A DNA stretch of 64,000 nt from Cenococcum geophilum 1.58. Its lineage: Eukaryota; Ascomycota; Dothideomycetes; Gloniales; Gloniaceae. Below are positions 5,254 to 61,378 of this stretch, piece by piece. Made by a program: the position numbers and the translations under genes. Below the pieces are notes generated by a model. That model was given only the letters and a program-made list of their open reading frames with translations. It was not told where the DNA came from and ran no database searches. The stretch is from the NCBI GenBank assembly GCA_001692895.1, contig KV748233.1:496001-560000 (forward strand). Reading direction: 5' to 3'. Each line of letters opens with the position of its first letter. Within the stretch, counting starts at the first letter, position 1.

Positions 5254-8200
5254 AATATTCTCCTAATATATTATTAATACGCTTTTAGAACGTTACTAGT
5301 ACGTTTATAAGCCCGAATTATATAACTAATAGTTTATATAGTCCTTCCTTTAACCTAAAGGCTGCCTTTTATTTATTGCTTTCCTTAATTCTAATCTAAT
5401 AGTATACCTATCTTAAATCTATCTTCGTGAAGATTTACGCATTACCTATCCTATCCTAGATTTCGCTAATTAAGGGTAAAGGATACCTATCCTTTCTAGT
5501 AATGCTGTTTAACTATCTATAGTCAATGCACAGCCTTAGTTTACTATTCTTTTTTAGTATAAATAGTACTAGATAACCCGCTAATAACTATAATGGTCTA
5601 ATATATCCCTTTTATAAGTTCTCTTAAATAAACTCTTTTAATACTCTACCTTTTTCTTTAGTAAGCTTATAGATTAGAAAGAACCTTAGACTTGTTCCTG
5701 GTTCTAATTCTATTTTATAGTTCTATGCTATATACTCTAACACCTTTTTACTCTTAGGTGACTATAGTTTTTTACCATATTTATGGTATCTTTTTAGTAT
5801 ATAGCTTAGCCCTTTTTCCGTTTCTTCGTAGGTCGCTCCTACTTAGTACTATACTAACTTAGCTTATTATTACATCTTGCGGTATTATATATCTCTAATA
5901 TTAACTTAACCTATAACCTAATTAATTTTTAGATTATATTCCTATAACTAAGGCATTCCTAATACTGCCTTATTATTCCCTAATGGTAATATATTAAAAG
6001 ATATCTTAACTTGTTTTCCTTTAATGGTTAGCTAAATAGGTCCTATTTTAAGATTAATAATACCTCCTCTATAGGCTATTAGATCTTCTAAAATTATTAC
6101 TAATAGGTAAGGACGTTTCTTCTACCTATATAGTAACCCTATTTTTTTAACTACTATTAGCGATATATAGTTCCTTATTGCTCTACTATCTATTAATGCC
6201 TTAAACTATTAATCTTACTATTTAACTTATAAATTTAGGTGTTATCCTTAAATTCCTTTAAGGGTTTAAGGCTTTACTACTGGCTCCCTTTAGTCCTATA
6301 GGCTTTTACTTTTCCTAACTACTAGCTACTAGATCCTGTTTGTACTTAGTTTAACTTAAACTAATACTTAGTTTATTTTTTGTCTTCAATATACTATAGA
6401 CAGGTATTCTCTAAATATTCCTACTATTATTATCTATCTAGGCATTCTTCCGTAAGGAATTTTCCTAGTTAAAGTGTTAAGTCCCCTTATTCTTAAACTT
6501 CTACTAGGTGCTAACTATATATATACTTAGCGTTTTAATACTTTGCCTTATCCGTTATCTAATATATCCTTATTAGATACTTTTAATTTTTATTCTTTGG
6601 TGCTCTATATATATTACACACATTATTTACATATACTATCTATAATAGTATATAATATGCTTAATATCTTAGGTTAACTCTTAGTTTATCTTTATTCTGG
6701 AGTTTAAACCTTTTTCGTGTTAATCTAAGCGTTATAACTTTATTTACGGGTACTAAGATTTACCTTTTACTTCTCTAGTCCTCTAATTACTCCTCTAGAT
6801 CCTTTAATATTATAATTAAGGCCCCCTTAATATAAGTTATAGCCTTTTCTATAATTGGGTGGTCTTAGACAACTTTTTTATCTAGCTATATATAGAAATC
6901 CTCTCACTTATTATTATGTCGTTGCCTATACTACTTTTAGTATAGCTGCTTAAGTATATATAGCTCGTCCGTAAGGAAATATCTCTTTATTACTGCGTTA
7001 TAATAGCCTTTAGTGTGTTGTTCCTTAAACCTAGTAGGAATCCCTAAATCCTCTTCTTGTTCCAGTTTGGTAAGCTATTTAGCTTTTAGTGTACCTACTC
7101 TAGGCCTATTAATAATCCTTTATACTAGCGCTCTGTCCCTTATACGTCTTAATATGCTAGATATTTTATCTAGTTTCTGTTCTTGCTATAAGGTAATTCT
7201 TACCCTAAATTCCTTTATGGTTTCCTTTATATTACGTCTTATAAGTAGATCTTTAAAGTCTTTATACTTCTTAATTTTAGTATTAACTTTTTAATCTTTA
7301 GGCTAAATACTATATTCCCCTAGTAAGTCTTCTAGGTCTATATATCTATCTCCTAGTTTAATTGCTACTTACGCTATAGATTCTCTAATCTATAAAGAAG
7401 CTCCTTGCCTCTTACTTGTAGGTGTCTTAATTTATACTCTAAATTCTTAACCCCTTAGATTCTTTAATCCTAAGCTTGCTTTTAACTTAAGCTTAGCTCT
7501 AGCCTTAGTCTAACTAGGCTTTACTAGTGTCCTTATCTTATCTTAAGAGTTCTAGATCTTACTTATCTTATCTTAAAAGTCTTATACTGTTGGGAATTCT
7601 TGTCCTAAGCTTATTTATATGTCTTTAAACTAAGCTACTACTCTACTCTATTGGTTTCTGTTTATTGTGGGTCTTTAAGCCTACCTTATCTTATCTTAAG
7701 AATCTTAGTTGTTTTTCCTCTTATTATAAGAATCTTAAGCCTTTAGCCTTTTGCCTTTATTGAGTAGTGAGCTAGTACTAGCAGTTGTCTGCTTACTTAA
7801 TTATCCCTAGATATTGCTTCTTCTGTCTTATAAAGTAATAGACGCTGTGTCTAATGGTGTTATAATACCCGTTACTAAACCTTGCTCTATAGCGGTCTTA
7901 GTCTCTACTTCTATTGCGTTATTAAGGTTTAGATACCCCTAGTTGGTTCCTTTACTGTCCTTATTGCTATTAATTAATAAGTACTCTAACTCCATTGTTA
8001 TTATTGCTAATTATTATCTATATATTGCTATAACGTTTTAATCTAGCTTATAAAGTTAATCTTATTCTTTATCTAACTCTTTAGTTCCTCTAAGTTTTTT
8101 TAACTCTAGCTTTTATGGCCAATAGCTTATACCGTACTTAGCGTCTTTATAAATTTAGTATACGTTATTATAATAAAATATAAAACTTTTAATTAAACAC

Positions 8201-9360
8201 TCTTTTGTTCCTTATAGTATACTATTATCCCTCTATACGTGTGTGTTATATACTGTTAGTCTAGTTCCCTTTATTATATAGTAATTCTAACTATTTTTAT
8301 AATCCCTTATAAAGTGACCCTATTTTCCACAATTTATATAAGCTCCGTCTCTAAACTATTAACTTTATTATAGAGTCCGCCTAAATGTCTTCTACTATTA
8401 AGATCCCTGGTTTGGCCTCTGCTCCTTAGTTCTATAATTACTAGATCCTTAACCTTTAGGTTTCTATAGTTTCTTACTCTATTTCTTATAGGCTTCTTTA
8501 GTACTACTTAGGTCTATTAGCTCTGCGCTATACTATAGTTTCTAACTTAGCTTTGGTTATTGCGTACTCTATATCTTATATAACTATGGAACTCTATCCT
8601 AGCCTTTCTTAGCCTGTTCCCTTTAGAAGATCCTATTATTAATTTTAATCGCTTAATCTATTAATTTCCTTAGGGTGTCTATATCTTCTATTAGAATAAT
8701 TACGTCCTAGACTTTAGCCTTAAGTCCTTATTTATACTATGCCATAAGCGCCTTATTGTTCTATTTGACCTATATTATAAGTATTTAAAACTATATTATG
8801 TACTTAATTGCTAAAGTTCGCTATATTAGGTCCTAAAGCTTTTTTTTTATTATAGTTGTTGCTTCCGGGTCCCCAAATATTTGTATTAATTATTCTGTAA
8901 ATCCTGCCTAGCTAGAAAACATAAATCGTACCTCTTAATTAGTAGTAGTTATTCCGTTAGTCAGTATTTCTATTAAATAGGGTTTAAACTATTTAAGTGC
9001 CTAACCTATTAGGAATAGTCCTGCGTAGGCTATCTAGTCTATTATTGTGGCTAACTTAGCCCCTTTTTATATAACTTTAAAATGCATTTACGTTAGAAAT
9101 CCTTTAAGCTTTAATCTCTTCCCTAAGAATTGTTTAATTAATGGTAATTTAACCTTTGCTACTCCAATTCCATTAAGTCTGTTCTTAAGTACTATATTAT
9201 TTTCTATTAATTAATCCACTATTTCCTATAATTATTCTACCGTTATAGGTTGTTGCAAGTTAGTGTCCGCTATACTAGTATTACCCCCTAACCTTAAAGT
9301 AGTTGCCGCCGTTAATGGCGTTGTGGTGGCTGCTTTTGGTGGTATGTTGTTTAACCTTCT
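5253..9360 (-). pseudogene. Gypsy copy 1 gag-pol (gag, protease, partial RT), RIP-inactivated
   Basis: Gag begins next to the LTR (start codon mutated to ATA, then PPKAA). It carries a CCHC knuckle at about 8,303-8,343 that reads INCGKQGHF with flanking cysteines changed to tyrosine. The aspartic protease signature at about 6,163-6,204 reads LIDSRA instead of LIDSGA. Reverse transcriptase at about 5,259-5,560 contains [37 protein letters not shown] and QFGLINVLVTFQ, the classic Ty3/gypsy order. RT ends at the LINE junction, before the expected YLDD box. Frame is kept over long distances if TAA/TAG are read as Gln/Trp, so damage is mainly by transitions rather than indels. Confidence 0.85.
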
Positions 9361-13327: not shown

Positions 13328-13578
13328 CACCCCCTCAGATCTGGCGTAGCACGTCAGAGCTGGATTACCGGATTAGGCAGTTGGGAGAGACGTGCTAGTA
13401 GTAAGCTTTGCCGAGCGTCAATTGACTAGATGTCTAATATCGCGGAGCCCTAAGACTTTAACGAATTTTTGATGATTTTGCTTTGAGAGAGCTTTAGTTA
13501 GTCTATCTGCAGCCATCTCGCTTGTTGGTACCTATTGTACAACAAAGCTTCCGTTTTGGACTTCTTGGCGAAGCCAGA
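13145..13578 (-). mobile_element. Copia LTR retrotransposon fragment (end of pol, PPT, 3' LTR)
   Basis: On the minus strand the end of a Ty1/copia pol reads WLRQEVQNGSFVVQ, a TAG (expected Trp), then VPTSEMAADRLTKALSKQ and LGLRDIRHLVN before a TGA stop. This matches the conserved RNase H end of copia elements (VPT.EM.ADGLTKAL). It is followed by a polypurine tract (GAGGGGGTG) directly before TGTTGG, the LTR start. The rest of pol is missing, replaced at about 13,578 by the Crypton-like element. RIP is light here. Confidence 0.82.
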
Positions 13579-46257: not shown

Positions 46258-46891
46258 CATACTATCTAAAAGTGCTCTATTTAGCTTAGCGTAGCTTATA
46301 GATAGCGAGAAATATAGTAACTTAAAACTTGTATGCCAGGGGCTAGAGTTTAAAGTCTATAAAGCGATTATATATACCTAATCTTTTATACTTATAGCTG
46401 CCTATAATAAAGGCTTTTAGGTAAAAGCTAACTAAATATTTAGTAGAATTAACCCTAACTAACTAACTAATGGGTAGGAGGCGGCGACTAATATTATAAA
46501 TATTAACGAGTTCGATTCTAGCACCGTTAAGAGGATAATCTAATTTATATATAAGAGGGACTATAAGAATGGTAAGGAGGAGTAAGGATCTAATATTAAC
46601 GACGCCGATACCTTATTGCCATCTAAACTAGATAATAGCGGTGGTAATAATAAAGATATAACGATACGGCTGACGACGGCCTATATTACACTTTGTCACA
46701 TCTATATTAATATAATTGCCGATTACTACGATATACTATAGCTAAAAGAGCTTGCGAATATAAAAATCTAATACATTCTAGGAACTAGTTGGTCCGCAGA
46801 TGGGTTTCCTAATATTGTTAAGGATGTCTTTAGCCTAATAGGTAACTTAGCATTGTATAATATAATTACCTTAATAGCGGCTAAGTATATC

Positions 46892-47062
46892 TATCGAACT
46901 GAAAGTTTAGGTCAGGAAGACTCGTGTAATTATTAATCTATGAAGAAAAGTGACTATATATATATGATATGGATAAGTTATAGGTAGACGTAAGTTATAA
47001 AATAACGATAAAGCTGACGACAACAAATTGCCACTAGGTAGGTAGTAGGCGACCGTTTAATA
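46892..47062 (-). repeat. 3' LTR of the non-autonomous element (171 bp)
   Basis: It aligns without gaps to the 5' LTR. The differences are essentially all C-to-T/G-to-A transitions in this copy (for example TATCGAACTG versus TGTCGAACTG). Confidence 0.92.
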
Positions 47063-47070
47063 TACCCCCC
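47063..47070 (-). other. Polypurine tract
   Basis: In the sense direction GGGGGGTA lies directly before the 3' LTR start, the position used for plus-strand priming. Confidence 0.75.
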
Positions 47071-47128
47071 TAGCTTTAAGCTTGCTTGTAGGTCAAAGCT
47101 ATATCACTAGTCTTGGCGTGGTATTAAG

Positions 47129-48502
47129 TCATTATCTTTCCTCTAAAAGCTCCCCACTAGAGAGCGGTCTAGAGAGTAGTTGACGAAGTTAAAGCTCCTC
47201 GCTAGTATATAATCTATAAGGGTTATCGCTAGAGACTAATTGACTAGGCTCTTTCCTAGGGCTGTGTTCCCTTAAGTCGCGATCCTAATGTCGTCTATTA
47301 AGTTCAGAGGTATAGACTAATCGACCGTCCTAATAACGCATACGATTCCTCCGTCGTTTAGTAATTATAGGTGACTTAATTCTTTACTCAATCCGATTAC
47401 TATAATAACGGTCTTTAACCTTATCTCTTTGTCTTTTCTGTCTATTAGTAGCCACTAGTATCCGTTTTAAAAGGTCTCTATATTATCCTTCTGTATAAGC
47501 AGGTACCCGTACCTATACCAATACTACCCTACTTAGCTGAGACCGTTAGTCGTCATCTTGTAAAGAGGTTAATTCTAATCCTGTTGTAGAATCGCTACCC
47601 TAGTCCTCTTATGCCCTAACTCGTCTTAACCCATTATCTATCTCTACCTTGTGTTTTCCTAGGCCTTGGCGTTATAGAGATATTCTTAGGCGTTTAAGGA
47701 CGCTATATTATAGGCCCCATTTTATAGCTAGAGCCATTAGATACTTATAGGGATGCGTAGTAACTATATCCTTTAAGTCCATGTAGTAGGTAACATTAGT
47801 ATCCCTTAAAGTAGCTCTCTTTTATCGGTCCTAGCCTTATACTAAGTAATGTTTTGTAAGCTTTGTTAGGGTAGTAGGGTCTAAAATAAGCTTCTAGAAG
47901 TCCTTGACTCTTTTAGGAAAGCCCTTAGCCGCGGTATGTTTCCAGGAGCCTTTATCCTAAACAGGCGCTAAGATAGGTTCAATCGGATCATCGAGCCACT
48001 TCCGTAGGGAGTTCAGCTGAACTGCCGTATGGTTACGAAGGCCTTCCGTCTGGTTACAAAGGCTTGCCCTAACGTCGTTCATTTGCATTTCCATCGACAT
48101 TATTTGTAACTTGACGTCGTTAACCTATGTCGTAAGACGTTCATCCAGTGACCTCATTTGCGTCTTGACCTCATCAACTTGTGTCTTGACCTCATCAACT
48201 TGTGTCTTGACCTCATTAACTTGTGTCTTGACCTCGTCCACTTTGGCATCGACTCGATCGACACCCCTTTTTACCTCCGCTACTCTTACGGCCCACGGAG
48301 CATCGTCGTCATATAGGAAAGCTGTCGAGTCGCTTAGCATGCCTATGGCGCCATCTAGGTAAGGATTCGAATCCGTGGAGAGGTCTGACGGTCGAATGGG
48401 TAGGGTAAGGTTGACTGAGGTTGTGGTGTGTTTGTGTATCTTCTGACGTAGGTTCTTCAACGCCGTGTAGGACGGCTCGAACGGGACAGCTGATGGAGCC
48501 AT
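47129..48502 (-). pseudogene. Coiled-coil ORF of the non-autonomous element (about 457 codons, gag-like position)
   Basis: ATG at 48,502 (MAPSAVPFEPSYTALKNLRQ), first in-frame stop TAG at 48,125-48,127 (a former CAG). If TAA/TAG are read as Gln/Trp, the frame continues to a TGA at 47,129-47,131. Residues ~90-140 form heptads built from near-identical VDEVKTQ units. After these come MQMNDVRASLCNQTEGLRNH, KGFPKRVKDFQKLILDPTTL and NVTYYMDLKDIVTTHPYK, then a basic Arg-rich C-terminal half (RQKRQRDKVKDRYYSNRIE). No CCHC knuckle or catalytic motif is present. The position between primer site and polypurine tract is that of gag, but I do not recognise the family. The first 126 codons are unmutated. 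An alternative upstream ATG at 48,646 would add 48 residues. Confidence 0.65.
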
Positions 48503-48731
48503 TGCGTTAGTAATACTTGCTGCTTCTTCTGTTGCGTGTACCTGACGTCTGCGTGATAGATATTCGTGTATTTTGATGAGAATGATGATAGAGTCTTGCG
48601 GGGTAGACAGTTGTCTAAAAGTCAGATTTGACTTGATCACGTGCACCTAAGCGAACCAATGGCAGAAGCTTGCTCAGAAGAAGTCAAGACACGTAGGTTC
48701 TTTGAGTGGTCCAAAATGATTCTTTTTGACT

Positions 48732-49155
48732 TGATTCGATCGATCGATTGACCGAATCGTTCCTTGTTCGCTGGCTGTTCGCTCGAACGATTGACGTCTA
48801 GTGTACCTCCATAGGAGGCCTTGATTTGATTTGATTCGGCAACGAGCCGATATCGAGTCTCTGGTTTGATTCGATCGATCGATTAAACGAATCGTTCTGG
48901 TGTTCGTTTCCTCAATCAAATGTCATTCAGTAACTGTCCATCTAGTACCCAACTAAGCCGTAGTAGTGCCTAGATCCTACTATACTATTCAGCAATCGTC
49001 CATCTAGCATCCAACTAAGTCGTAGTGGTGCCTAGATCCTTCCCTGCTGTTTAGTAATCGTCCATCTAGCACCTGCCTCGTATCTGGCCCCTGGGCCCTG
49101 CCTCGTGTCTGGCTCCTTGCCTTGTGTCTAGCTCGTCCCTGCCTCGTGTCTAGCC
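48732..49155. repeat. Short repeats in the leader of the non-autonomous element
   Basis: GATTCGATCGATCGATT with AACGAATCGTTC-type flanks occurs twice (about 48,732-48,766 and 48,866-48,898). A ~67-bp unit containing GTCCATCTAG and TGCCTAGATCC occurs about 2.5 times (48,937-49,070). CCTCGTGTCTGGCT-like units follow (49,076-49,155). Confidence 0.7.
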
Positions 49156-49312
49156 TCTACAAGCTTGTGGTACCGTGGGAATCGTCTGTTGTAACACTGG
49201 TTGAAGGAAGTTGTTATCAATTTGAAAGGAATCACGAGTACAAGACTAGTACCCGGACACGAGCCTGTAGGAACAGCTGATTAAAAGAATAATCGGTGCA
49301 TAGGAAACAACT

Positions 49313-49325
49313 CCGGGCTCATAAC
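49313..49325 (-). promoter_or_regulatory. Primer binding site (half tRNA-iMet)
   Basis: GTTATGAGCCCGG (sense) begins at the first base after the 5' LTR. Its complement CCGGGCTCATAAC matches the anticodon arm of fungal initiator tRNA-Met rather than the 3' end. Half-tRNA priming is known from copia and Ty5 elements. Confidence 0.75.
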
Positions 49326-49496
49326 TGTCGAACTGAAAGTTCAGGTCAGGAAGACTCGTGTGATTATTGATCTACGAAGAAAAGTGACTATATATACATG
49401 ATATGGATGAGTCATAGGTAGACGTAAGTCACAAGATGACGACAAAGCTGACGACGACAAATTGCCACCAGGTAGGCAGTAGGCGACCGTTTAACA
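49326..49496 (-). repeat. 5' LTR of the non-autonomous element (171 bp)
   Basis: It is the unmutated copy. In the plus direction it starts TGTCGAACTG and ends CCGTTTAACA, followed by the ATATC target duplication. Confidence 0.92.
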
Positions 49497-49900
49497 ATAT
49501 CGAAGAGCTTGTCAAACTTAAGGACTTCGTAGAGCTGGACGTTATAGGCGATTTCGCCATCGGCATTGTATGGACAGCGATTACCGCATTTAAGGACATG
49601 GAGGAAAATTTTATACTAAAACTTTAAGCTGTCTAATCTCAGCTATAACAAACAGAATTACTGCTTTAATCCGCCGAGGCGAGGTATGCCGCGGCTAAGC
49701 GCAAAAGCGAAAACATTAATAACTGTCTTAATACCCTCTGTATAACTAGGACCTGTTATAATATTAGTTATAGAGCCGAGTTTATATATTACATTAAGGA
49801 TAGTAGTTATCTATCCAACCCTAATTACCCTTATATACTTTATTGCAAAAGGTGCGAGCATTATACATAAGTAAAGATATATAGCTTAGGAGATCGGCTT

Positions 49901-53949: not shown

Positions 53950-56900
53950 AATTTCTTCTTCCTTAACTACTTATTGTGCTCGCACTATTGCTATAATATT
54001 GTCTCTTAGTAAGATTATACCGTCTCTATATTCTCGTTGTTTGAAAGAGGGGTTAGTTTATATTACGTTAGTAAACCCATCTTCGCAACAACCGTCCTTT
54101 TACTTAAAATGCACTAAAGCAAATATTTATTCGTCCTATAACGTTCGCTCTACCTCTAATACTAAATATACGCGACCTATTACTCTTAATAGTCGTCTAG
54201 TTCCCTAATTAATTTGTCTTAGGGTTTTATATTTAATCTACTGCTACGCGGCTAGATAATAAACTATCTATTGCTCTTGCTAAATTGCACCAATCTTAGG
54301 ACGCTAAATAGGAGGCTGCCGATGCTTAGTAACAGGCTCTTAAGTCTTATTTAGCGGCGTCCACTCAATTAATCCGTCTTAAAAAGGTACGTAAGAAGGT
54401 TTATTTTAAGGAGTGGAAACTTATAGAATAAGGTCTACAGGAACTAGGTAATAAAAAAACGGATTCTCCTCTAATAAAGAAGAAAATAGATCTAAATAGT
54501 TCGGTAACTGCTCTTCTTAGGTCCCCCTTAGGTAACTCATTCTTTAGCGATTTTTCTTTATTAATACTACCTAACCTAATCTCTTCCGATACTCCTATAC
54601 CTTTCCTATAATGTTCTTTAAATTCTCTAGTAGCTCCTAGGTAGTCTTAGTATAGCCTATTTACTTAACCTTATACTATATTTTATTATTAATGTCCTTA
54701 TAATTAACAATCTTCGAAACTTACCATTTGTCTTCTTCTTATCCTCTATATATGTCTACTTTATAAACCGGTAGCTTAATATTCCTATATACTGGTTCTA
54801 GCATTGCGATATACTATATAGGGTAAATCTTTATTTTAGCTAGTAGGTTTAACTTAAATATAACCAGTAAAATCCTCTATATAATTTTAAAAGGTCCTAG
54901 TCTAACGTGGTCCAATTTCTTACTTAGTTATTAACTCTTAAAATTTTTATATAGTAGCTACACTTTATCTCCCTCCTTAAGATCTGGTCCCTTAGATCTC
55001 TTAGCATTATAGTACCTTTTTATTCTCTACTATACTACCTTAGCTGTCTCTATAAGGTCTATATAAAGATTTATTAAATCCTTTATTCTTTCTTTAGCTG
55101 TATTACTCGTTTTCTTTACTTGCCGTAATAACAATAACATTCTTAGCTTATATCTATAATTTGCCTTAAATAGTAATATGCCTATTCCTTCTTAAGGTGT
55201 TATATTATACGTAAACTATATAACTAGTAATAGTAATACCTAATTATTCTATATATAATTAATATAATACCTTAGATACTGTTCTAGTATCTAGTTTAAT
55301 CTTTCCGTTTAACCGTCTGTTTATAGATAATATATAGTAGAAGTTACTGCTTAAACTCCTTACTCCGCTAAGAATACTTCCTAAAATGCTACTATAAATC
55401 TTAGATCTCTATCTAATATAATTTTACTTAGTACTCTATATTTTATAAACACTTCTTTAATATAGATTCTAGTGACATCTTTTACTAAGATTTCTTCTAT
55501 ATATACTATAAAGTATCCCCACTTTATAAGCTTATCCACTATTATTAAAATCGCATTATAATCTTATCTAGTAATAGGATCTTTTAATTTTGGCAACTTA
55601 ATAATAAAGTCCTATAATATAACCTCCTATAGTCTCTCTAGTATTTTAATAGGTTATAGCCCTCCGTATAGCTTATACCTTATTAGTTTATTCCTTTAGC
55701 AATCTAGATATTCCTTTATAACTTTTCTAGCTATCCTCTAGATTCCGTTAATAATATATTCCTCCTAGAGTCTTGACACTAAGCCTATAGCCCTATTATA
55801 TCCTTAAGTTAGTCCCTTATAAAAGTCTTCTATAAACTACTTTACTATACTTCTTGGGATATATTTCGCTTCTTAATTTTTATATATATCTGTCTATAGA
55901 TCTTCTAGCTATGCTTTTAGAATTCTTTATACCTAAAAGCTTTCTAGTATCTCGTAGACTTTCTTTAGTTTATTATCTTCTTAAGTTGCTGTGATTTCCG
56001 GATAATTATACCTAATTAATCCGTCTATATCCTTTCGCAATAAAGCCCCTAATAGCTTTTCCTTATTTTATAGTTTAGCTTTATAGCTTAAAGCATCTAC
56101 CCGCGTATTGTCTGTACCCTTAGTATACTAAATCTTAAAATAGTATTCTGTAAGCATCTCTACCTATCTAACCTATCTTTAGTTAAGTTTCTTTATTATT
56201 AGAAATTCTATTAAGTTTTTATAATCCATTTTTACTATAAATAGTTTCTCTATACCTTGTAAGAATGCTCTCTATTTCTTTAATACTGTAACTATACCTA
56301 ACAACTCCTTATTATAAATATTATAGTTTAACTCTAGTAGTATTATCTTCCGACTATAGTATACTACTAGGTACTATCTATCTTAATGCCTTTATATAAA
56401 GTACGCCCCTAGTATATAATTTAATATATTTGTTTTTATAACCGTCTCTAGTCCTAGTTAATAGATTTTAAAAATTAGCTCCTAGGTAAACAACTCTTTA
56501 ACCTTCTTAAAGAGTTTTCTTTACTCCTCTTCCTATACCTATAGTTCTTCTTTCTTTATTAACCGCGTAAATAGCTTAATATCCTTTAACCACTGCGCTA
56601 TAAACCTTCTATAGTAATTGTAAAACCCTAAGAATAATCTTAACTGTGTAATATTCTCTAGTTCCTACCAATTTACTATAGCCTCAATCTTCTTTAAATC
56701 TATACTAAATTGGCCTGGTTTAATAATAAATCCAATAAAATCAGTCTTCCTAGTAAAGAACTCGCATTTCTTAATTATTACTAATATCTATTCTTCCTAT
56801 AGTCTCTTTAAGACCTATTTAACGTATTCCCCATATTCTTCCTTAATTATTAAGTAGATAATAATATTGTTAAGGTATACTATAACAAATTCGTCTAAGT

Positions 56901-59900
56901 ATTTTCCTAATATATTATTAATACGTTTTTAGAACGTTATTAGTGCGTTTATAAGTCTAAATTATATAACTAATGGTTTATATAGTCCTTCCTTTAACCT
57001 AAAGGCTGCCTTTTATTTATTACCTTCCTTAATCCTAATCTAATAGTACGCCTATCTTAAATCTATCTTCGTAAAGATTTACGTATTACCTATCCTATTT
57101 TAAATTTCGCTAATTAAGGGTAAAGAATACCTATCCTTCCTAGTAATGCTATTTAACTGTCTATAGTTAATATATAACCTTAGTTTACTATTTTTTTTTA
57201 GTACGAATAGTACTGGATAACCCGCTAATAACTATAATAGTCTAATATATCCCTTTCGTAGATTTTCTTAAATAAACTCTTTTAGCGCTCTACCTTCTTC
57301 TTTAGTAAGCTTATAGATTAAAAAAAACCTTAGACTTATTCCTAGTTTTAATTCTATCTTATAGTCCTATACTATATATTCTAACAGCTTTTTACTTTCT
57401 AGTAACTATAGTTTTTTACTATACTTATAGTATCTCTTTAGTATATAACTTAGTCCTTTTTCTATTTCTTTATAGGTTGCTCCTACTTAGTACTATACCA
57501 ACTTAGCTTATTATTATATCTTACGGCGTTAAGTATCTCTAATATTAATCTAACCCGTAATCTAATTAATTCTTAGATTATATTCCTATAACTAAGGTAT
57601 ACTTAATACTGCCTTATTCTGTCCTAATGGTAGGATATTAAAAGATATCTTAATTTATCTTCCTTTAATAGTTATCTAAATAGGTCCTGTTTTAAGATTA
57701 ATAATCCCTCCTCTATAGGTTATTAGATCCCCTAAAATCGTAACTAATAGGTAAAGTTACTCCTTCTATCTATAAGGTAGTCCTATTCTCTTAACTACTA
57801 CTAGTAAGATATAGTTTCGCGTTACTCCACTATCTATTAGCGCTTTAAACTGCTAATCCTACTAATTAATTCGTAAATTTAGGTATTATCCTTAAATTCC
57901 TTTAAGGGTCTAAGGCTCTACCACTAGCTCCCTCTAGTCCTATAGGCCTTTACTTTTCCTAACTATTAACTACTTAATCTTAGTGTACTTAGCTTACTCT
58001 TTAGCCAATACCTAGTTTGCTTTTTATCTTTAATATACCATAAACACATATTTTCTAGGTATTCCCACCACTGTCGTCCGTCTAAACATTCTTTTATAAG
58101 GAATCTTTCTAGTTAAAGTATTACACTTCCTTCCTCTTAAACCTTTGCTAGATGCCATTTATGCATATATTTAGCATTCCTATACTATTATTTATCCATT
58201 ATCCAGTATATTCTTATAGGGTATTTCTAATTCTTTTCCTTTAGATTCTTATATATTTCGTATATATTGTCCACGCACGCAATCTATAATAATATGTAGT
58301 ATACTAGGTGCTTTAGGTTAACTCTTAGCTCGTTTTTATTCCTAAGTTTAAACCTTTATTATACTAATCTAAACGTTATAACTTTATTCGCAGGTACTAA
58401 GATGCGTCTTTTGCTTCTCTAGTCCTCTAAACATTCCTCTAAATCCTTTAACGTTATAATTAAAGCTCCCTTAATATACGTTATAGCCTTCTTTATAATT
58501 AGGTAGTCCTAAATAACTTTTTTATCTATCTATATATAGAAATCTTTCTATTTATTATTGTGCCTTTGCCTATATTACTTTTAGTACAGCTGCTAGAGTA
58601 TATACAGTTTATCCGTAAGGAAGTATCTTCTTATTACTATATTATAATAGCCTTTTATATATCGTTCTTTGAACCTAGTTAAAATCCCTAAATCCTCTTC
58701 ATTTTCTAGTTTGGTAAGCCACTTAGCTCTTAATATGCCTACTCTTAGCCTATTAATAATTCTTTATACTAGTGCTCTGTCCTTTATACGTCCTAATATA
58801 CTAGATCTTTTATCTAGTTTCTATTCTTACTATACAATAATTCTTTACCTAAATTCTTCTATAGTTTCTTTTAGTTTACACCTTACGCCCTAATCCTCAA
58901 AGTTATCTTACTTCTTAATTCTAGTATTAAACTTTTAATCTTTAGGCTAAACACTATATTCCCCTAGTAAGTCTTCTAAGTCTATATATTTATCTCCTAG
59001 TTTAACTACTATTTATATTATAGATTCTCTAATCTATAAAAAAGCTCCTTACCTCTTACCTATAGGTGTCCTTATTTATACTCCGAAATCTTAGTCCTTT
59101 AGATTCTTTAATCCTAAGCTTACTTCTAACTTAAGCTTAGCTCCCGCCTTAGTCTAACTAGGTATCTATAGTATTCTTATCTTATTTTAAGAGTCTTAAA
59201 TCTTACTTATTTTATCTTAAGAGTCTTATATTTATAGGAAACTTTATCCTAAGCTTATTTGTATATTTTTAAACTAAGCTACTACCCTACTCTATCGGTT
59301 TTTATCTATTATAGGTCCTAGGGTATACCTTATCTTGTCTTAAGAATCTTAGTCATCTTTTATCTCGTCTTAAGAATCTTAAGCTTTTGGCCTTTTGCCT
59401 TTATTAAGTGCCGAAATGGTTTACTATCCTACTTCTCTTACGTCTTATAAAGCGATAGACATCGTATCTAGTAGGGTTTTAATCCCTACTAATATTCCTT
59501 ATTCTATAGTGGAATTATCCTCTATCTTTAGTATAATATCTTTAAGGTCTACTCGCTTCTAGTAAGCGGCCCTTATTACCTTATCGTTATGGAATATTTT
59601 ATTTAGGTTAAATTTATTGTCCTTAATATCCAATCTGCGAACTAGTTTATTAGTTCCTCTATATTCTATAAGTACTAGCTCTTATAGCTAATAGCTTACA
59701 CTATACTTAGCGTCCTTATAAATTCGGTATATGTTATTATAATAAAACGCAAAACTTTTAATTAAATATTCTTTTGTTCCCCGTAGTATATTATTATCCC
59801 TCTATACGTATATATTATCTACTAGTCTTATACCTTTTACTATATAGTAACTTTACCCGCCTTTACAGTCTCTAATATAATAACCCTATTTTCCGCAATT

Positions 59901-60930
59901 TATATAAGCTCCTTCTTTAAACCATTTTTCTTACTATAGAGTCTGCCTAAATATCTTCTGCTGTTAAGATCCCTAATTTGGCCTTTGCTCTTTAGACCTT
60001 TAATTACTTAATCCTTATCCTCTAGGTTTTTATAGTTTGCTCTATCTCTTATAGGCTTCTTTAGTACCACTTAGGTCTATTAACTTTACGCTATACTATA
60101 GTTTCTAACTTAGCTTTTATTATTACGTACTTTGCGCCTTATATAACTATAAAACTCTATTCTAGCCTCTCTTAGCCTATTCCCTTTAGTAGATCCGATT
60201 ATTAATCTTAATCGCCTAATCTATTAGTTCCCTTAGGGTATCCACATCTTTTATTAGAATAATTACATCCTAGACTTTAGCCTTAAGTCCCTATTTATAC
60301 TATGCTATAAGCGCCCTATTATTCTACTTTACTTATATTGCTAGTGTCTAGAACTATATTATATACTTAATTACTAAAGTTTATTATATAAGGTTCTGGA
60401 GTTTTTTTTCCGCTATAGTTATTTCTTCTAGGTCTCCAAATATCTGCATAAGTCGTTCTATAAATCCTTCCCAGCTTAAGAACATAAATCGTATATCTTA
60501 GTTAGTGGTTATTATTTTGTTTACTTATATCTCTATAAGGTAAAATTTAAACTACTTAAGTGCTTTTTTTAATAAGAATAATCCTGTATAGGCTATCCAA
60601 TCTACAGGTATAGGTAACTTTACTCCTTTCTATAAGACCTTAAAGTGCATCTATATAAAAAATCCTTTAAGCTTTAACCTTTCTCCTATAAATCTCTTAA
60701 TTAATAGTAGCTTAATCTTTACTGCTTCTATCCCATTAAGTCTTTCTTCTAACACTATATTATTAGCTATTAGCTAGTTAACTATTTCCTATAGCTATCT
60801 AACTATTACAGGTTGCTATAAGTTAGTATCTACTATACTAATATTACCTCCTATCCCTAAAGTAGTTACTGCCGTTAATAGTATTATAGTGGCTGCTTTT
60901 AGTAGCATGTTACTTAACTTCTTATATTAA
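53950..60930 (-). pseudogene. Gypsy copy 2 gag-pol, RIP-inactivated
   Basis: Gag (about 60,930-59,700) has FRIGGN-like and IVRQLQEIVNQLIANN-type readings near its start and a CCHC knuckle INCGKQGYYIRDC at about 59,862-59,910. Protease has an intact LIDSG at about 57,825-57,836. RT (about 57,230-56,850) ends in a catalytic box at 56,854-56,880 reading VYLNNIIIY, where YLDD is expected, so both Asp are Asn. Integrase (about 55,960-55,250) reads EEYIINGIQRIARKVIKEYL then DCQRNK, with one zinc Cys lost, followed by DYNAILIIVDKLIKWGYF. A C-terminal chromodomain-like section (about 54,900-54,650) reads GPFKIIQRI and YRGQEEDKWQVSKIV. Frame is largely preserved between stops. Confidence 0.9.
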
Positions 60931-60952
60931 TACTATAACTAAGTAGTAATTA

Positions 60953-61378
60953 TATAACAAAACCTTATAGCAAGAACTATAATAGGTTTATTATTAGGCT
61001 AAGTATATAGGAATGCAAGTATAAAGAAGCAATAACGTAATAATAACTAGTAGAGTAGTTGCCTAATAGATTAACTTTAATTATATTCTAAGAATTACTA
61101 TAAGGAAGGAACTATCTAGGTAGGGATTAAGGGTCCTTAAATACACAACCGTACTCCTATGAAATCCTTCTTATATATAATGTATGTATACTCTATCTAC
61201 TCTGCTATAGATCTTATAAATCATACAGATTATATAAATCATATTATATAACCTTAGTTACCATTCCTCATTATATAGTTCTATCGGCTCTATCCTAGAC
61301 TATGCCTATATTAACTAACTAGCTTCTTCCGTCTCTTCTCCAAGTAGTTGTAATATCGTACTTAAAGCGTCCGTAATA
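60953..61378 (-). repeat. Gypsy copy 2, 5' LTR (426 bp)
   Basis: It is the same length as the 3' LTR. The termini are mutated by RIP (TATAACAAAACC...GTCCGTAATA). Confidence 0.93.

Follow-up and report, generated by a model that had tools for sequence, protein, structure and literature searches.

One open reading frame cassette on copia-type and gypsy-type vehicles in a probably helper-dependent long terminal repeat retrotransposon family of Cenococcum geophilum

A 64-kb stretch of the Cenococcum geophilum 1.58 genome (GenBank assembly GCA_001692895.1, contig KV748233.1, positions 496,001 to 560,000 of the forward strand; hereafter the window) holds a 2.6-kb long terminal repeat (LTR) element at 46892-49496 on the minus strand, with a single open reading frame (ORF). 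Comparison with the whole genome (177,193,698 bases in 162 contigs) leads us to regard this element as probably one member of a helper-dependent LTR retrotransposon family in which a conserved ORF cassette rides on two vehicles, here called type A, which includes the window element, and type B. The anatomy, the copy family, the two vehicles, the shared cassette and the mosaic ORFs are visible in the DNA itself. In the open PMC literature searched, we found neither this ORF described nor a coding cassette common to copia- and gypsy-type vehicles.

Since the element reads on the minus strand, its 5' LTR is the right-hand one (49326-49496), which carries a TATA-like ATGTATATATAG at about 49388-49399, and its 3' LTR lies at 46892-47062. 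Both measure 171 bp, and self-comparison aligns them at 90% over 174 bp. The target site duplication ATATC flanks the pair at 46887-46891 and 49497-49501. A primer binding site (PBS), GTTATGAGCCCGG, occupies 49313-49325, and a polypurine tract (PPT), GCTAGGGGGGTA, adjoins the 3' LTR at 47063-47074; the tract reads GCTGGGGGGGTG in a sister copy on contig C22 and identically in an autonomous copia element on contig C6. Between these ends lie a leader downstream of the primer site (48915-49312), a 146-bp module of the 5' untranslated region (UTR; 48769-48914) and the ORF, which runs from an ATG at 48502 to about 47135. The first 200-260 nt of the leader match ORF-less elements resembling terminal-repeat retrotransposons in miniature (TRIMs) at 72-75%. 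All coordinates and cis parts that the first-pass annotation had assigned were thus found again in the sequence, as was its single ORF with VDEVKTQ heptads: the frame has 456 codons, interrupted by 17 in-frame stops (the first at 48125), and the heptads, at 48158-48262, are encoded by 21-bp direct repeats and are modelled as a helix (coiled coil) in the intact copy. The length of this tandem array differs among copies L026, L023 and L021.

The primer site pairs over 13 nt with the anticodon arm of a tRNA-Met that this genome encodes. The tRNA-Met gene starts with A1 and ends in ...TTCAGCTA, forming an A1:U72 end pair, which we take to mark it as the initiator type (tRNA-iMet). The 13-mer occurs 236 times in the genome versus 2 times for a reversed control, and the tRNA gene is one among 20 regions holding 21 of its sites. 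No tRNA gene was found within the 64-kb window, and Rfam yielded nothing for window positions 46500-49900 up to E 1, hence no sign of a tRNA-derived LTR.

The damage to the window element bears the mark of repeat-induced point mutation (RIP). Its LTRs differ at 17 positions, 16 of them transitions and 1 a transversion; their divergence fits RIP because 13 of the 16 transitions are changes in CpA/TpG contexts. The TpA/ApT ratio is 1.4-1.9 to the left of about 47950, which includes the 3' LTR, versus 0.93-1.0 in the remainder of the element; the flanks are RIP-damaged on both sides (1.67 and 1.52). The boundary at about 47950 is sharp, and the 5' part with its LTR is undamaged.

The same ORF recurs between LTRs across the genome. 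The less damaged inner part of the window element matches at least 86 stretches (best 40 of 496 candidates), and the intact ORF used as query matches 57. Twenty loci were extracted for study (L009-L028), and in 18 of these an LTR pair flanks the ORF, established by self-alignment for 15 and by LTR coordinates for L010, L023 and L026; L013 and L014 each lack one LTR. Two further two-LTR copies on C25 and C34 bring the total to 20, each 2.5-3.9 kb long, of which 3 are type A and 17 type B. The annotation's proposal of a non-autonomous family with a single ORF is thereby borne out by at least 20 two-LTR copies, although it had missed the larger set, in which this ORF sits in the gypsy-type vehicle. 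Only L025 keeps the whole ORF free of stops (427 aa), between LTRs that are 99.5% identical; no zinc knuckle is present in this uninterrupted copy, as had been claimed from the damaged one. Perfect 5-bp target duplications flank 9 of the 10 two-LTR copies tested (half of the 20), with none at L011, which places the observation above chance.

Inspection of both copy types reveals one cassette in two unrelated settings. Blastn alignment joins positions 592-737 and 846-2314 of a 2625-nt type A copy to positions 393-538 and 929-2325 of a 2775-nt type B copy, where type B additionally holds a 36-nt repeat of the 146-bp 5' UTR module. The shared cassette, that is, the ORF together with this module, spans 47192-48914 in the window. 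Nothing is common to the two types in the LTR, leader or PPT region at E 1e-3. ORF-less, TRIM-like siblings are known for both vehicles. The 5' UTR module is also present in a different, roughly 1-kb repeat whose internal repeats have diverged (L060, L061 and about 14 further loci).

Type A, comprising the window element, L010, L012 and the truncated L013 and L014, looks like a copia-type vehicle from the sequence of its ends. Its LTRs follow the pattern TGTYGAACGG...TCGACA and its primer site is that of tRNA-iMet. The autonomous copia on C6 (1560-aa open reverse transcriptase (RT) frame, 227-bp LTRs 100% identical) has the same PBS, and the PPT/LTR junction of the less damaged C22 copy, GCTGGGGGGGTG|TGTTGA, differs from it at 1 of 18 positions. 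Pairing the first 100 of 236 PBS sites with 54 of 75 PPT sites gave at least 10 pairs, five of which, C6 included, span 4.80-4.87 kb, the size of a full-length copia. The others are the C22 copy at 3.5 kb, a TRIM-like element at 0.9 kb, two pairs at 2.4 and 3.0 kb, and a 6.1-kb span that probably crosses two elements. At least 8 of the 100 PBS sites have a scored copia RT no more than 8 kb away, which is downstream on the same strand for six; the exceptions are two sites on C8. A candidate for the proposed copia helper with matching LTR ends and primer site was found: C6 offers the same PBS, similar LTR termini and a nearly identical PPT junction, but lacks the type A leader. No autonomous copia with that leader was found at the 37 places where it occurs (37 of 37 candidates scored); a single one of these has a scored copia RT less than 8 kb away, and that RT is encoded on the other strand. 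Of the leader places, five were taken out in pieces of 2.7-3.0 kb and proved to be TRIM-like elements (L062, L064 and L065) or tandem arrays. The arrays, L063 and L066, have the order LTR-internal-LTR-internal-LTR and are TRIM-like, with the type A leader and without the ORF. The type A vehicle has moved recently, since the two 151-bp LTRs of an ORF-less sibling of about 1 kb, located at about C1:1825170-1826170 and without match to the ORF, are 100% identical.

Type B (L025 and the remaining copies) has LTRs of about 188-192 bp reading TGTTACGGCAC...GCTAACA, and no tRNA primer site was recognised in it. By sequence comparison it is gypsy-type, with a U5, leader and PPT in common with autonomous gypsy elements. 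A pattern combining its PPT with the LTR start has 543 genome matches versus 0 for the control. When 100 of these sites, on contigs C1-C26, were set against scored matches to the RT domain RVT_1 (72 of 150 of which lie on those contigs), 6 RVT_1 matches had a B-type site 2475-2858 bp downstream on the same strand, and within 5 kb none of the 100 sites lay upstream of such a match or on the other strand. We then compared the 3' ends of four of these six gypsy elements with type B, plus both ends of a fifth element on C77. The gypsy U5 regions are 82-93% identical to type B over 84-96 nt, and the PPT region is 95-98% identical over 55-60 nt in three of the four 3' ends. The C77 element has a 1042-aa open RT frame, its LTRs are 99.1% identical over 213 bp, and across 287 nt of U5 and leader its identity to type B is 78%. 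The U3 regions differ between the gypsy elements and type B.

Priming in type B looks like self-priming of the Tf1 kind. Tf1-type Ty3/gypsy elements prime themselves through complementarity to their own RNA 5' end. In 8 of the 9 type B copies tested (of 17 with two LTRs), the 9-10 nt directly after the 5' LTR are the exact complement of a stretch of LTR located some 40 nt beyond a TATA-like motif. The two partners covary among ORF copies (GTCTTGATAT, AGCTTGATAT, GACTTAATAT and ACTTGATAT). ORF-less siblings of type B carry the pair ATCTTGATAT, with an exact 10-nt match in 2 of 5, and the C77 gypsy has a different pair, AGCTTTAGAT, of 10 nt (0 of 2000 shuffles). Independent covariations are fewer than these pairs, since a single RIP-type change accounts for some of the variants. 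The two commonest 9-bp motifs of the copia element GalEa were absent from the 120 nt after the B LTR.

Comparison of the ORFs suggests that the cassette has switched between the machinery of two retrotransposon superfamilies. Fifteen ORFs were compared with two references, one A and one B, counting transversions alone because RIP makes none (L013, L023 and L026 were omitted from ORF comparisons for split matches). Five are mosaic: L012 in the A vehicle and L011, L016, L017 and L020 in the B vehicle. The first 300 columns of L012 are A-like, with 3/300 transversions against A and 31/294 against B, while its last part is B-like (44/471 against A, 7/477 against B; p 6e-13). The four B-vehicle mosaics likewise start nearer A and end nearer B, and Fisher p values across the set run from 6e-14 to 8e-7. 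Of these four, L011 resembles A strongly (7/300), and L016 (15/289), L017 (11/259) and L020 (15/300) do so less. L015 is intermediate (p 0.009), and the nine remaining ORFs have no shift. L012 is a fairly young insertion, given its own 5-bp duplication and two LTRs that are 98.3% identical. Such mosaics could have arisen either by template switching in co-packaged RNAs or by recombination between DNA copies.

Transversions in the ORF also point to selection on its protein. Across 8 disjoint copy pairs, with the coiled coil excluded and L028 omitted as well, they number 172/144/233 at codon positions 1, 2 and 3 (p 1e-5). AlphaFold2 models residues 67-150 of the intact L025 product as a helix, mostly confidently, and the remainder poorly; the middle domain modelled alone is a beta-hairpin followed by helices, at a predicted local distance difference test (pLDDT) score of 58. 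The second half is rich in arginine. The low-confidence models had no fold match at E <= 0.001, and the product matched no intact stand-alone gene or gag family. The ORF seems dispensable for mobility because ORF-less siblings have the same ends; its conservation on two vehicles nevertheless suggests a helpful role. Our best guess is an RNA- or particle-associated protein in a gag-like role that would help its own RNA. That such a gag-like or RNA-associated role applies, as against a passenger, is a tentative proposition to which we give rather less than even weight.

The earlier annotation had noted that copies with a pol gene between the same LTRs would reduce the element to an internal deletion derivative. 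No such copy was found among the best 150 of 910 copia RT candidates, the best 150 of 8909 RVT_1 candidates and the best 40 candidates of each LTR search, which were the ones scored. None of 47 A-LTR places has a scored copia RT or RVT_1 match closer than 8 kb, none of 40 B-LTR places (of 48) is near a scored copia RT, and no scored copia RT match is near any of the 3 two-LTR type A copies. One of the 40 B-LTR places is near a scored RVT_1 match, namely C77; this is a relative and does not have the same LTR, because its U5, leader and PPT resemble type B but its U3 does not. No pol was seen in the window frame or in the extra segment of the C22 copy described below. Deletion derivatives of LTR elements are common, and the primer site, PPT and LTR termini of type A are those of full-length copia, which is what an ordinary copia with an internal deletion, its ORF a remnant or a chance frame, would also leave. 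This explanation is very improbable and already contradicted: 20 two-LTR copies of 2.5-3.9 kb hold the same ORF, it is open over 427 codons in L025 and under constraint, it is unlike the copia gag and RT pieces compared, and it occurs in gypsy-type vehicles too. We thus reject both the simple internal deletion derivative and the chance frame, given the family of copies, its one intact member and the constraint on coding.

The nature of the ORF leaves more room for debate. It could be a very divergent gag, which would make this a gag-only (TR-GAG) element that produces particles or an RNA-binding protein and borrows RT and integrase, and we consider that unlikely without dismissing it. The long coiled coil, the Arg-rich second half and the gag-like position of the ORF fit such an origin, as would the beta-hairpin and helices of the middle domain, whose pLDDT is only 58, and the sections of PMC8704663 on TR-GAG elements indicate that elements with one gag ORF can transpose. 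Yet a Pfam comparison of the middle domain as permissive as E 10 gave no gag family, a zinc knuckle and a fold match are both lacking, and comparison of the product with the gag pieces of its partners (132 and 244 aa) gave nothing above chance, the best E being 0.61; moreover, the same ORF sits in vehicles of two superfamilies. The unlikeness to retroelement proteins would suit a passenger taken up from the host's own genes that plays no part in transposition, as would the seeming dispensability of the ORF in siblings with the same ends. We rate this origin as improbable. Among the 57 stretches, no uninterrupted full-length match exists besides L025 in a search that disregards introns, and most stretches sit in LTR copies, the ones without an assigned LTR copy being those at C44:1352084 and C18:2295298 and on C49, C60, C28, C14 and C83. 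Across copies, furthermore, transversions avoid second and favour third codon positions. At four loci, fragments of the ORF form inverted duplications (C28:223933-224180; C49:563822-564524, L077; C60:209351-209923; C14:1372000-1374600, L076), the one on C14 being a 234-bp palindrome; they are possible sources of hairpin RNA or possible aberrant reverse transcripts.

Where the mosaics are concerned, the alternative is that integrated copies made their ORF segments alike at the DNA level, through gene conversion or recombination, and never exchanged them in particles, which is a distinctly possible explanation, if not quite the one we would back. Fungal repeats recombine, and the mosaics consist of internal segments with both ends of one vehicle, also an outcome of conversion. 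L012 speaks against it as a two-LTR mosaic in a fairly young insertion, though conversion in its source copy would still be compatible. A bolder proposal is that a gene that is neither gag nor pol parasitises two superfamilies at once, its protein recognising its own RNA module (the ORF with the shared 5' UTR module) and docking it into copia as well as gypsy particles, so that differently primed RNAs would be packaged together and then recombine; we find this quite unlikely.

Several observations weigh against a helper-dependent family with one conserved cassette on two vehicles. The intact ORF is found in one copy only, L025, and the constraint signal is uneven, since first codon positions are also elevated in A-versus-B pairs. 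The longest type A copy, on C22, has about 1.2 kb of extra sequence ahead of its 3' LTR (C22:2205260-2206470, in L031), a segment in which no frame reaches 84 codons and to which none of the four compared copia and gypsy pieces matched. The similarity of the C6 copia to type A is confined to 29 nt at the LTR end and PBS, and the RT scan behind the missing pol covers the best 150 candidates of each of the two sets. Regarding self-priming, L016 fails the match, and 3 of 5 B-type siblings have only 5 nt, where by eye one RIP-type mismatch interrupts the pair.

Even so, a helper-dependent family remains the explanation we favour. Its only gene would be the ORF of about 427-460 codons, encoding a coiled coil, a middle domain and an Arg-rich tail. 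RNA would be transcribed from the LTR, the ORF translated, and the RNA packaged by the gag of a helper. Type A RNA would be primed by the anticodon half of initiator tRNA-Met and most likely served by Ty1/copia. Type B RNA would prime itself as Tf1 does and would most likely be served by Ty3/gypsy, a helper suggested by the leader, U5 and PPT of a Ty3/gypsy element in type B. Helper enzymes would then reverse-transcribe and integrate the copy, leaving the 5-bp duplication, and the cassette could have moved between vehicles by template switching of co-packaged RNAs or by DNA recombination. We infer every enzymatic step here, along with helper identity and the role of the protein.

The closest known systems include fungal TRIMs. 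As described in the TRIM sections of PMC10886601 (Kojima 2024), TRIMs, Helenus included, are shorter than 1 kb and without proteins; the fungal members have the tRNA-iMet anticodon loop as their dominant primer and are linked to copia. The window element shares with TRIMs its LTRs, primer site, PPT, 5-bp duplications and lack of pol, but its family measures 2.5-3.9 kb (2.6 kb in the window), has a conserved ORF of 427-460 codons and possesses a second, gypsy-type vehicle. No counterpart of the tRNA-like LTR sequence of Helenus was found in the window element (Rfam up to E 1). TR-GAG elements of plants likewise have two LTRs around a single ORF and depend on a helper, but that ORF is a recognisable gag according to the parts of PMC8704663 devoted to them, while the present one matches no gag family tested. 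In wheat, the passages of PMC9744471 on Angela subfamilies and on Wilma, Sabrina and WHAM propose host switches through gene conversion or template switching, and their long-lived non-autonomous partners resemble ours in sharing only short motifs with the autonomous element; the exchanges described there are within a family or among gypsy elements, whereas here the vehicles are copia- and gypsy-type. For GalEa and FunCo1, copia elements of Pezizomycotina, the relevant portions of PMC5445492 give GalEa TGT...CA LTRs, 5-bp duplications and a conserved hairpin instead of a primer site, and give FunCo1 an internal tRNA-Lys site; type A differs in being primed, to all appearances, at the tRNA-iMet anticodon arm. 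Type B resembles Tf1 in a primer site complementary to its own LTR site, both of which covary, and differs in lacking pol; its own self-priming is putative.

Elsewhere in the window, 54500-61000 and 5500-9000 have a strong plus-strand pyrimidine bias, with GC skew mostly between -0.2 and -0.37, and 13445-13576 on the minus strand has a short match (50% over 44 aa) to the end of copia RNase H.

Non-autonomous LTR elements are usually viewed as loyal to one autonomous family. If the cassette has indeed changed vehicles, the choice of partner would depend on a set of short cis modules (LTR end, primer site, leader and PPT) exchangeable as one unit, and a single particle may bring together RNAs of different superfamilies. 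Because ORF-less siblings exist in both vehicles, the family would also provide a natural comparison for what a satellite-encoded protein adds.

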